Shown piece by piece: positions 39,247 through 42,043 of a DNA stretch of 52,017 nt. The stretch comes from an uncultured Lactobacillus sp. (GTDB taxonomy: Bacteria > Bacillota > Bacilli > Lactobacillales > Lactobacillaceae), in contig CAJUTO010000010.1 in assembly GCA_910589675.1 (NCBI GenBank), forward strand, positions 1-52,017. The letters run 5' to 3'. Under the pieces are notes generated by a model. The model saw nothing but the letters and a program-made list of their open reading frames with translations, was not told the origin of the DNA and ran no database searches. Position numbers and translations under genes: made by a program. Every line of letters begins with the position of its first letter. Position 1 is the stretch's first letter.

Positions 39247-39316
39247 GAGTTTTCTCTATTACAGTTTATAGCTATTGTTTACTGCTCCTTACCCGATCTT
39301 TCTAAAGTGGAAAAAG

Positions 39317-39365
39317 GTTATAAAAAGTTATAAAATTAAATAAAAGTTATAAAAAGTTATAAAAA
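39317..39365 (+). repeat. Phased repeat array I before ATPase 1
   Basis: Four copies of GTTATAAAAA (one ends in T) start at 39317, 39327, 39346 and 39356, giving spacings of 10, 19 and 10 bp. They form two identical pairs, GTTATAAAAAGTTATAAAA, offset by 29 bp. The array ends 14 bases before the ATG and overlaps the expected promoter and ribosome site (AGAGGGG). This is an iteron-like operator array. Confidence 0.85.
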
Positions 39366-39378
39366 GAGGGGTAACTAA

Positions 39379-40479
39379 ATGGAAAATCCTTTTAATCCTA
39401 GTTTTGGAAAAATGCCCAGTGTTTTCTTAAATCGTGATTCATTAACTCAACGTATAGTTACTGAATTGAACCGAGTGGGATCGCCTTTTCAAACATCCCT
39501 TCTTTACGGGCAACGTGGTTCGGGAAAAACTACATTGATGACAGAAGTTTCTAATTTAATAAGTAAAGATAAAAATTGGTTAGTAATCAATTTAGTTCTA
39601 GATGATGATCTCTTAATCTCCCTAATAAATCAATTACAAAGACATCTTCTTAACTTGAAGATTATAAAAAATATCGACCTAAAGATGAACTTCTTTGGAC
39701 TAGATATGAGTGCTAGTTTCCATCAACAGGCTGAATCTAATTTTCAATTATTATTCCAAGATGCCTTAGAGAAACTAACAAAAAAAGGGTTTCATGTTTT
39801 AATTAACATTGACGAAGTACATTTAACACCATTATTAAAAAAATTTGCTAGTTGTTATCAAATTATGATTCGAAACAATCTTAATGTTTCTTTACTTATG
39901 GCAGGTTTACCAGAAAATGTTTCAGAAATCCAAAATGATGATGTTCTTACCTTTTTATTGCGTGCCAATCGAATCGTTTTGAATCCTTTAGATATTGAAA
40001 GTATAAAAAATAGTTATCAGCATATTTTTAGTAAAGCTGGCTATACGTTTTCTACTGAAACTCTTTTATATATGACTAAACAAACTCAAGGATTTGCTTA
40101 TGCTTTTCAATTATTGGGCTATCATTTGTGGGAAGAAATCATTCATTCCTCCAATAAGACGATTTCTATATCTGATATAAACAACATCTTAGACATCTAT
40201 ATTAGTGAATTAAATAGAAATGTTTACTTCAAAGTTTATAGTGACATGTCTGAACGTGAAAAAGAATTCGTACAAGCTATGGTTAAATCTAAGCAACACA
40301 AGGTTAAAAGTCAGGTTATTGGTAATCTTATGGAAAAAGGACCGAATTACATTGCTGTATATCGCCGAAAATTAATTGATGATCAAATTATTAAGCCAAA
40401 TGGTTACGGCTATGTTAGCTTTTTATTGCCCTACTTCGATAAATTCGTTGAACAAGAGATGATTTTAGATGAATTTTAA
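39379..40479 (+). CDS. AAA+ ATPase 1 with C-terminal winged-helix-like end, repeat-coupled
   Basis: 366 residues. It begins ENPFNPSFG; Walker A is GQRGSGKT (44-51), Walker B LINIDEVH (141-148), sensor-like LLMAGLPEN (172-180) and an Arg-bearing FLLRANRI (192-199). TQGFAYAFQLLGYHLWEE (236-253) belongs to the lid. The C-terminal 80 residues (SEREKEFVQAMV, VYRRKLIDDQIIKPNG) look like a winged helix. The overall plan recalls ORC/Cdc6 and STAND-type P-loop ATPases. No transposase or toxin is adjacent. Paralogue of the gene at 40796. AGAGGGG precedes the ATG; the repeat array overlaps its control region. The function is unknown; autoregulated DNA binding is inferred. Confidence 0.8.
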   Translation: MENPFNPSFGKMPSVFLNRDSLTQRIVTELNRVGSPFQTSLLYGQRGSGKTTLMTEVSNLISKDKNWLVINLVLDDDLLISLINQLQRHLLNLKIIKNIDLKMNFFGLDMSASFHQQAESNFQLLFQDALEKLTKKGFHVLINIDEVHLTPLLKKFASCYQIMIRNNLNVSLLMAGLPENVSEIQNDDVLTFLLRANRIVLNPLDIESIKNSYQHIFSKAGYTFSTETLLYMTKQTQGFAYAFQLLGYHLWEEIIHSSNKTISISDINNILDIYISELNRNVYFKVYSDMSEREKEFVQAMVKSKQHKVKSQVIGNLMEKGPNYIAVYRRKLIDDQIIKPNGYGYVSFLLPYFDKFVEQEMILDEF

Positions 40480-40542
40480 AATTAATCTAGAACTTTTTAG
40501 TTTCTCTCTTTCTTATCCCTCATGATTTAACTAAATATAAAT

Positions 40543-40597
40543 AAAATGAGCAATAGCTTTCCTACAGTTCATATAGAAACTATTACTCATTTTATTT
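40543..40597 (+). terminator. Terminator of ATPase 1
   Basis: AAAATGAG-C-AATAG pairs with CTATT-A-CTCATTTT, followed by ATTTT. Confidence 0.82.
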
Positions 40598-40704
40598 TAC
40601 ATTCATATCTAAGCTTGCTTTAGTGCTTTATATACTTCAGTCGCAAAAGATAAAATCCTATCAACATTAATGCACTTATGCAAAACAATTCTAGAATCAC
40701 CTAA

Positions 40705-40783
40705 AAAGTATAATGAAGTATAAAATTGTGCCGCAAAGTATAATGAAGTATAAAAATTTGCAGTAAAGTATAATGAAGTATAA
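40705..40783 (+). repeat. Phased repeat array II before ATPase 2
   Basis: Three perfect copies of the 19-mer AAAGTATAATGAAGTATAA at 40705, 40735 and 40765, exactly 30 bp apart. Each holds two GTATAA half-sites 10 bp apart. The first half-site includes a perfect TATAAT. The array ends 12 bases before the ATG. A diverged inverted half-site, TTTATATACTTC, lies at about 40627-40638. The design matches array I but the motif differs. Confidence 0.92.
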
Positions 40784-40795
40784 TGAGGTTTTAAA

Positions 40796-41875
40796 ATGTA
40801 CAGTGAAAATCCATTTGATGCCGAATTCGGCGGTATTCCTGAACTATATCTTGATTTTAATAATGATGCTGTCAAATATGCTAAAAGAGCACATCGTTAC
40901 AAAAAACATCCCACTTACTCACTTTTTATTACTGGTGTTCGTGGTTCAGGTAAAACAGTTTTTATGAACAAAGTTGGCAAAGAACTTAATAAATATGATG
41001 ATACAATCGTAGTAACTCTTCATAATACTGAAGATTTATTTCGTATAATGTACATTAAGCTAGCCCCAATGCTTAATAAATTAAAAAAGTGGTCTTCATC
41101 TGTTTCAATTAGCTTACCATTCGTTTCTATAAATTTTGCTGAAGCAAATGAAAAACATGATGAAATCTACTATAAAACCGAAATCACTAAAATTTTAAAA
41201 TTACTGAAACAAGCTAACATGCGAGTCGCATTTTGTATTGATGAAGTTTCTAATACACCAGCAATTCAAAAATTAGCTGAAGAATTTAATAATTGGAGCT
41301 TAAGTGAACTGCAAGTTTCTGTTATCATGAATGGATTGTTGAAGGAAGTGGCGGAACTTTCTAGTTCGCATAATTTAACTTTTTTAGTACGCGCTGATAG
41401 GTTTCACGTTAATAAATTGCAAAAATTATCAATTGCTCAAGCGTATATTAAAGTATTTGACATTACAAGTGACCAAGCTGAAGAAATGGCCGAGATGACA
41501 CAAGGTTATGCTTATGCTTTTCAATTAATTGGCGATTTGATGTATGAAGAGCTATCTACTGGTAAAAATTTTGAAGACTCCTGGAATTATACTAAGTTAG
41601 CTTTTAAAGATACGCTTTTCAATCAAGCATATGATGTCATCTCACATGAATTAACAGAAATTGATTTTCAATTTCTCTACGAGATGTCAAAAAATAATAA
41701 TATTAGTGCAATTATTGAAAAAATGGGTAAAAGCAAGCAATATGTAAATATATATCGTACTAAGCTAATTAAATATGATTTAATCAAAACAATCATTCGC
41801 GGTAAATTAGGATTCACCCTACCTTTATTTAGGGAATTTATCCAAGCAAAATATGATGAATTAAATTGGGGATAA
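40796..41875 (+). CDS. AAA+ ATPase 2 with C-terminal winged-helix-like end, repeat-coupled
   Basis: 359 residues, a clear paralogue of the preceding ATPase: ENPFDAEFGGIP at the start, Walker A GVRGSGKT (47-54), Walker B FCIDEV (146-151) and VSVIMNGLLKEV. TFLVRADRF carries the Arg, and TQGYAYAFQLIGDLMYEE is nearly identical to its partner. A beta-hairpin insert sits between the Walker motifs in both. The C-terminal wHTH contains KSKQYVNIYRTKLIKYDLI and ends with LPLFREF. AATGAGG precedes the ATG directly after the repeat array. It has its own promoter and terminator, so the pair is not an operon. The function is unknown. Confidence 0.8.
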   Translation: MYSENPFDAEFGGIPELYLDFNNDAVKYAKRAHRYKKHPTYSLFITGVRGSGKTVFMNKVGKELNKYDDTIVVTLHNTEDLFRIMYIKLAPMLNKLKKWSSSVSISLPFVSINFAEANEKHDEIYYKTEITKILKLLKQANMRVAFCIDEVSNTPAIQKLAEEFNNWSLSELQVSVIMNGLLKEVAELSSSHNLTFLVRADRFHVNKLQKLSIAQAYIKVFDITSDQAEEMAEMTQGYAYAFQLIGDLMYEELSTGKNFEDSWNYTKLAFKDTLFNQAYDVISHELTEIDFQFLYEMSKNNNISAIIEKMGKSKQYVNIYRTKLIKYDLIKTIIRGKLGFTLPLFREFIQAKYDELNWG

Positions 41876-41968
41876 AAAAACTGAAATGATCAAATCATAT
41901 CCAGTATTGTTTTGTAATTATTTACTTTTTAAAATAAAATTCGTTTTAACCTAAATAATAAATAAACT

Positions 41969-42002
41969 AAAACGGGTGAAGTCAATCAACTTTACCCGTT
42001 TT
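41969..42002. terminator. Bidirectional terminator between ATPase 2 and bsh
   Basis: AAAACGGGT-G-AAGT pairs with ACTT-T-ACCCGTTTT. Confidence 0.88.
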
Positions 42003-42043
42003 ACTTTGTCAAAATTTACTACTAAATTATTTTAAACTAACCT

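Follow-up and report, generated by a model that had tools for sequence, protein, structure and literature searches.

Paralogous STAND-like ATPases of a Lactobacillus carry private phased repeat arrays that probably serve to repress their own genes

Introduction

Many STAND proteins carry extra effector or sensor domains beside their ATPase. Here we describe two paralogous AAA+ ATPases, encoded by open reading frames (ORFs) that we call ORF1 and ORF2, each directly preceded by its own array of phased repeats, in a 52,017-nucleotide stretch of DNA from an uncultured Lactobacillus sp. (contig CAJUTO010000010.1 of GenBank assembly GCA_910589675.1; this whole stretch is called the window below). 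Among the matches listed, those closest in fold are archaeal MNS/STAND ATPases, NLRs and Orc1/Cdc6. The archaeal ATPases include SSO1545 (2fna) and PAB2304 (2qen), which we take to belong to the MNS clade, and to our knowledge none of them has a private promoter array; the window proteins score below the cut-off of the corresponding Pfam model, ATPase_2 (26.7 and 24.8, cut-off 33.2). The Orc1/Cdc6 and DnaA initiators resemble the window proteins in joining an AAA+ domain to a DNA-binding C-terminus and in having tandem AT-rich sites beside the gene. The curated models of Orc1/Cdc6 for ORF1 (TIGR02928, 13.1 bits against a cut-off of 181.3; Pfam ORC-CDC6-like, 13.1 against 27) and of DnaA for ORF2 are nevertheless far below cut-off, and unlike these initiators the family is found mostly on chromosomal contigs with varied neighbours.

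Phage-repressor immunity groups are paralogous autorepressors that keep separate specificities in one cell. Autorepression by RepA of repABC plasmids (PMC4492784) is alike in this respect; RepA and the phage repressors differ from the window proteins in belonging to unrelated protein families and in lying within larger operons or replicons. Head-to-tail oligomerisation on DNA direct repeats has been described for BldC of Streptomyces, which differs in having 68 residues without an ATPase domain and in controlling a regulon beyond itself (PMC5859096). RdfS, the winged-helix protein of an integrative element, oligomerises on DNA as well; it differs in controlling excision and is not known to have an ATPase domain (PMC11963761). 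The mycobacterial regulator IniR has an ATPase domain predicted to resemble SSO1545; it differs in its 818 residues, its MalT-like domain and SdiA-like DNA-binding domain and its control of iniBAC (PMC5760070). Finally, the plasmid pTE15 encodes a 295-residue AAA family ATPase that is reported to be non-essential for replication. No description of the present family or its layout was recognised by title or abstract in the open-access literature, and the family is widespread and apparently undescribed. The evidence below argues, with a probability that we put at roughly 0.78, that both window proteins bind their own arrays and repress their own transcription.

Results

Each gene is preceded by a phased array in its own word

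The original prediction, made from the window, described genes of 366 and 359 residues with ENPF starts, Walker A/B motifs and TQGxAYAFQL, each preceded by phased, paired 10-bp half-sites with a period of 29 or 30 bp and in differing words, and all of these features were confirmed (Table 1). ORF1 and ORF2 are paralogous over their full length (29% identity, E=1e-37). Array 1 consists of two pairs of GTTATAAAAA, with 10 bp between the half-sites of a pair and a period of 29 bp; array 2 consists of three pairs of AAGTATAATG/A with a period of 30 bp, its last half-site running into the ribosome-binding site. Compared to dinucleotide shuffles of the window, array 2 gave 4 matches with at most 3 mismatches, a number reached by 0 of 100 shuffles, and array 1 gave 2 exact matches, 6 of 100 shuffles reaching 2 matches with at most 3 mismatches. 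Array 1 is statistically weaker alone because it is so AT-rich, and it carries weight because it is exact, private to its own gene and conserved in homologues. The proposed placing of the repeats on one helix face is an approximation: the half-sites of a pair, at 10 bp, are nearly in phase (-17 degrees at 10.5 bp per turn), but successive pairs, at 29 and 30 bp, are off by -86 and -51 degrees.

The array is common to the closer family

The sources of homologues were 75 genomes of the genus, of which 31 had a match, two family samples of 301 and 397 genomes (32 and 45 with a match), 398 genomes of the phylum (10) and 397 genomes of another family of the phylum, judged from named relatives to be Lachnospiraceae (70). 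From named genomes, 80 of 222 related loci were kept, with records from Lactobacillaceae, Lachnospiraceae, Erysipelotrichaceae, Acholeplasmatales, Streptococcus, Treponema and Actinomycetota. Protein sets held stop-to-stop frames only, broken homologues being reported only as pieces, and upstream DNA was taken contiguous with the directly following gene start. The first set comprised 144 homologous frames, 133 at full length, 114 after 90% redundancy filtering and 113 with enough upstream DNA; the code table drew on the 92 of these that have 4 or more half-sites. The held-out set comprised 113 frames, 109 at full length. Requiring less than 85% identity both to the first set and among themselves left 81, of which 77 have a called array and 75 at least 4 half-sites.

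Under one scoring rule, at least 4 half-sites in steps of 9-11 bp were found in 166 of 192 homologue upstream regions (those with at least 100 bp upstream among 194 genes), compared to 13 of 288 for other ORFs of the same loci. By a simple array score, 83 of 113 upstream regions of the first set beat all 40 shuffles; this score is strict, and many of the remaining 30 are visible arrays with very AT-rich words. An array was called in 77 of the 81 held-out homologues. The gap between half-sites (n=857) was 10 bp in 522 cases, 19 bp in 155 and 20 bp in 32. The layout is not limited to the window locus: it was found across Bacillota, family members also occur in Actinomycetota and Spirochaetota records, and both of the two plasmid-borne copies examined carry arrays. 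From the second family sample and from the sample of the other family, chiefly stronger matches were fetched, and the array rate therefore holds for the closer family.

The first pair lies over a probable promoter

The second half-site of the first pair contains a TAAAAT, taken as the -10 box, and served as the reference point for offsets to a possible -35 box. In 18 of 93 homologues a TTGACA-like box (at least 5 of 6) stood at the one offset corresponding to a 17-bp spacer, the other 69 offsets giving 0 to 3. With the register set from the -10 box alone, 27 of 75 held-out regions had such a box at 16-18 bp (18 of them at 17 bp), compared to 0 to 2 at more distant spacings. The sixth -10 base was T in 80 of 167 cases in that half-site and in 115 of 857 others. 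An operator that overlaps its own promoter is therefore seen at the level of the family and weakly in both window copies; at that family level the promoter geometry supports the self-control that had been proposed. The candidate promoter of ORF1 gains weight from the family-wide 17-bp peak and from nothing else, and the first-pair position of ORF2 has a poor -35 box.

The same geometry bears on the possibility that the locus is a replication-initiator-like element, with the array as an iteron origin, a self-repressing initiator of the Orc1/Cdc6 or DnaA kind, and chromosomal copies that are captured or degenerate replicons. The AAA+ plus winged-helix fold of Orc1/Cdc6 is indeed present in the models. 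We consider this explanation quite unlikely, since the -35 and -10 boxes are arranged as in a promoter, gene positions are scattered along contigs, no replication gene recurs among the immediate neighbours, and the ORF2 query matches only 12 of 72,556 plasmid records and no phage record, with two viral contigs matching by one peptide pattern.

Words are diverse and private

The usual form of a half-site is N4.TAAAA, in which the first four bases vary (GTTA, AGTA, GATA, GATC, AGTT, AGTC, GATT, GTTC, AATG, ATAG, ACAG, AAGG and others). Homologues shared a word, allowing at most one change, in 80% of pairs at 70-79% protein identity, in 21% at 50-59% and in 7% at 40-49%. The proposal that the paralogues avoid cross-talk fits these data: a word was shared in 1 of 59 within-genome pairs, compared to 6.8% of between-genome pairs of similar identity, a difference that is only suggestive (binomial p 0.08). 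Members L171, L193, L180, L212 and L160 have quite different words or spacings (GTTGTCAA, AATGACAACA, AAGTTTAGAGG, the last repeated about 30 bp apart), which suggests that other recognition modes may exist in the family.

Genome-wide searches were made with pairs of half-sites. In the source genome the ORF1 pair occurred exactly only at 39317 and 39346, and the ORF2 pair exactly only within array 2, the search for the latter covering the source genome only. Of 8 further genomes, 5 have the ORF1 pair (at most 1 mismatch) only directly before an ORF1-type gene, and 3 do not have it at all. These results bear on whether the proteins could be ordinary global regulators that control other genes, with autoregulation incidental. 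The combination of winged helix and ATPase does resemble ATPase-type regulators such as IniR (PMC5760070), and the searches covered paired half-sites only. Such a role nonetheless seems very improbable: beyond their own arrays, the source genome holds no site with fewer than 3 mismatches to either pair, and hits at 3 mismatches were fewer than for the reversed control (5 against 22 for the ORF1 pair; 4 against 5 for the ORF2 pair). Two of these four ORF2-pair hits belong to a relic third array, with AGTATAAAAT pairs 29 bp apart, on another contig (L113, G000:C11:12747-12795). The relic has no ATPase gene behind it; an ORF read from the sequence as IS605/TnpB-like stands there instead, whereas in a genome of the same species this flank is followed by an ATPase gene.

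The recognition helix co-varies with the word

In the models the recognition helix is the third helix of the winged helix, beginning at residue 314 in ORF2 and at residue 322 in ORF1; positions are given in ORF2 numbering below. Over 167 protein-operator rows in total, we scanned 21,203 residue-base associations in the first set and 17,374 in the held-out set. Lys314 with G at word position 2 (G2) ranked first in the first-set scan (p 4.9e-11) and second in the held-out scan (p 6.4e-7); G2 accompanied Lys/Arg314 in 20 of 26 cases, compared to 3 of 66 others, in the first set (p=4e-12), and in 8 of 9 compared to 5 of 66 in the held-out set (p=6e-7). On independent pairs, drawn from a FastTree tree of the ATPase part alone with all 167 rows, the Lys314-G2 association went the same way in 6.7 of 10 and the opposite way in 0.0 (median p 0.016), and two crossed controls showed no trend. 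Both window genes obey this rule, ORF2 having Lys314 and AGTA, and ORF1, by alignment, Pro322 at the code position and GTTA. Co-variation of words with winged-helix residues, which the original prediction had named as a check, is thus borne out by an association that was replicated in held-out data and on independent branches.

Asn318 went with G at position 4 (G4) in 12 of 17 cases compared to 7 of 75 in the first set, and in 10 of 14 compared to 7 of 61 in the held-out set; for Asn318 together with Pro/Gln319 the held-out counts were 9 of 9 and 8 of 66. The strongest held-out association was that of Pro319 with C at position 2 (p 6.5e-9), which may be another rule of the code or may reflect lineage. 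Some words, e.g., those of L007 and L184, were out of register and left uncorrected, which blurs the code counts. That the recognition helix determines the operator word is seen here as an association.

It could be argued that no protein binds the arrays, which would then be RNA leader elements or neutral products of tandem duplication, as AT-rich tandem repeats arise easily, the arrays lie partly in the leader and some distant members lack them. This is barely credible given that word and recognition helix co-vary in held-out data, that spacing is conserved across phyla and that the two window arrays show no RNA structure (z -0.7 and -0.2).

The proteins consist of a STAND-like ATPase and a predicted winged helix

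AlphaFold2 models of both proteins were confident (mean predicted local distance difference test scores of 89.7 and 88.2) and showed the STAND/MNS-like fold over the whole length, ending in the winged helix that had been proposed, which was predicted with high confidence in both. Comparison with ORC/Cdc6 and STAND ATPases, also called for at the outset, placed both among the nearest folds listed. The hairpin insert stood only as a variable stretch (residues 99-115 of ORF1, about 100-120 of ORF2) of low model confidence, its hairpin shape not being confirmed. As expected of STAND/MNS ATPases, the Walker residues were conserved in the 173 aligned members (K53 in 173, D149 in 173, E150 in 170). 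A GxP (GLPL-type) motif is also expected in the helical domain of such ATPases; G237 was present in 171 of 173 members and Pro239 in only 38, both window proteins having Ala. Among curated models, NB-ARC was passed by ORF2 (25.2 against 23.5) and not by ORF1 (14.9), and nSTAND models were below cut-off for both proteins.

The ATPase and winged helix fill the 359 and 366 residues, leaving no extra effector or sensor domain. Searches of defence, phage and curated family models with the window proteins gave only ATPase-type matches, mostly weak. No partner gene recurred among the 358 immediate neighbours (at least 80 residues) of 194 genes, the largest cluster having 6 members (ABC-transporter-like). 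These results concern the purpose of the system, for which a defence or abortive-infection module could be envisaged: a STAND-like ATPase, silent on its array, would be freed by phage attack and form a toxic or activating oligomer. Such a module would be compatible with autorepression. We consider it unlikely, as PADLOC matches were weak (best E 0.001), there is no effector domain, and there is no recurrent partner among the immediate neighbours, which were the only surroundings examined.

The two genes in their surroundings

ORF1 and ORF2 are co-oriented and appear to be flanked by a UvrA-like gene and a bile-salt-hydrolase-like gene. There was no third protein match to the ORF2 query in the source genome (1.68 Mb, 59 contigs). 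A further uncultured Lactobacillus record (L133) encodes both proteins at 100% identity. In Lactobacillus johnsonii ATCC 33200, ORF1 is 98% identical, and ORF2, at 95% identity, is interrupted. One of the pair is broken in close relatives at L095 and L135 (ORF1 in a same-species genome, ORF2 in ATCC 33200), and each gene therefore seems dispensable. The claim that each gene has its own terminator was borne out insofar as strong hairpins follow both; a stricter consensus scan listed neither. An 88-residue ORF on the minus strand (window positions 40609-40875) reads array 2 backwards, with repeated TSLYF, and is not a likely gene.

Table 1. Positions in the window of the two genes and of the elements associated with them
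Feature	Position	Strand	Details
Candidate ORF1 promoter, TGGAAA-17 bp-TAAAAT	39308..39336	+	9/12 matches; -10 box formed by the end of the second array 1 half-site
Array 1, four half-sites GTTA.TAAAA-A/T	39317..39365	+	Starts 39317, 39327, 39346, 39356
ORF1, AAA+ ATPase with C-terminal winged helix	39379..40479	+	366 residues
ORF1 winged helix, residues 292-348	40252..40422	+	From model; recognition helix 322-334 at 40342-40380
Terminator-like hairpin 3' of ORF1	40539..40597	+	z -6.0; absent from stricter consensus scan
Array 2, six half-sites AGTA.TAATG/TAAAA	40706..40790	+	Starts 40706, 40716, 40736, 40746, 40766, 40776
Possible ORF2 promoter, TTTGCA-16 bp-TATAAT	40757..40784	+	10/12 matches; within array 2, third pair
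ORF2, AAA+ ATPase with C-terminal winged helix	40796..41875	+	359 residues
ORF2 winged helix, residues 288-340	41657..41815	+	From model; recognition helix 314-326 at 41735-41773; Lys314, Asn318
Terminator-like hairpin 3' of ORF2	41964..42007	+	z -7.1; absent from stricter consensus scan

Discussion

Each gene is best read as a self-contained, cis-acting autoregulatory unit with a fast-diverging private operator. The arrays, the diversity of their words, the privacy of exact words in the genomes tested, the overlap with the promoter across the family and the co-variation are properties of the sequences; from them we infer binding, repression rather than activation, a switch by ATP and head-to-tail contacts. 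In the mechanism that we propose, the protein would be a minimal STAND/MNS-like AAA+ ATPase with a P-loop, a Walker B DE, a lid and the C-terminal winged helix. One monomer would read one 10-bp half-site, made up of four variable bases and a TAAAA-like core, through its recognition helix, and adjacent protomers would stand head to tail on each pair, probably in contact via their ATPase domains. The first pair would fill the spacer between the -35 and -10 boxes as well as the -10 box itself, the remaining pairs lying downstream in the leader, so that bound protein would shut off its own promoter; ATP would be the likely switch. A few changes in the recognition helix would switch specificity, with Lys314 reading G2 and Asn318 plus Pro/Gln319 reading G4, and paralogues in one cell would therefore not silence each other.

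Several observations weigh against this reading or narrow it. Promoter matches in the window are weak and as frequent in shuffles (16 found, compared to a mean of 17.6), so that promoter occlusion is argued for the family as a whole. A protein seated in the spacer could instead activate transcription, as MerR proteins do. In 24 of 188 cases the gene is followed, within 30 bp, by the start of a co-directional ORF, and the unit is thus not always solo. For Asn318 and G4, the independent pairs gave no significant result (4.0 against 0.3 of 9, median p 0.125), and ORF2 itself has Asn318 with A at word position 4, so that the Asn rule holds in part only. Residues in further alignment columns are associated with words as well, which probably reflects common descent. 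One candidate rule, that Gln319 predicts a base other than A at position 4, was dropped (discovery p 7e-8, held-out p 0.69).

The array itself is also missing from part of the family. Among distant members, namely 20 of the 26 matches weaker than about 1e-60 in the sample of the other family, which enter no other count, at least 4 phased half-sites were found in 8 and not in 12. Homologues lacking upstream repeats had been named from the start as evidence against the original prediction, which consequently stands for the closer family and not for most of these distant members; the array characterises the closer, NPF-type family rather than all relatives. The array-less distant members fall mainly in a branch of about 390-400 residues starting NPYRPGAG or NPYTPGAG, like L123-L125. 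In the closer set, for example, no array was visible by eye in L057, L058, L059, L077, L123-L125 and L214, nor recognisable in L300, L303, L305 and L326. Of these, L057, L058, L059 and L123-L125 are distant relatives, so that gain or loss of the array at the family's margin is possible. Some members of the L369-L381 branch (L370, L371, L376, L377 and L380) seem to have one 10-bp word pair upstream of a TTGAC-like box, and such one-pair copies of the NPYRPGAG/NPYTPGAG branch perhaps have a different operator layout.

Our guess is that the autoregulated protein, once released, would act as a dose-dependent effector or sensor, because neither a further DNA target nor a recurring partner gene was found. 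More speculatively, and as a tentative idea that we think possible without favouring it, the gene could be a single-gene, horizontally mobile selfish or immune-like element: a minimal STAND ATPase whose ATP-dependent head-to-tail complex on its private array silences it and marks self. The words would then be immunity or compatibility groups set by a short recognition-helix code, and new words would be favoured, letting a new copy work beside residents.

The autoregulatory reading raises the questions of why a STAND-like ATPase regulates, as far as can be read from these genomes, only itself, and why words are exchanged as protein identity drops from about 80% to 50%. The arrays tie a large and poorly annotated family of ATPases from gut bacteria to a readable DNA target. 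Since a likely site precedes the gene in most closer members, natural pairs of protein and operator number considerably more than a hundred (167 entered the code tables), and from these a recognition code for winged helices, as well as orthogonal repressors, could be derived.

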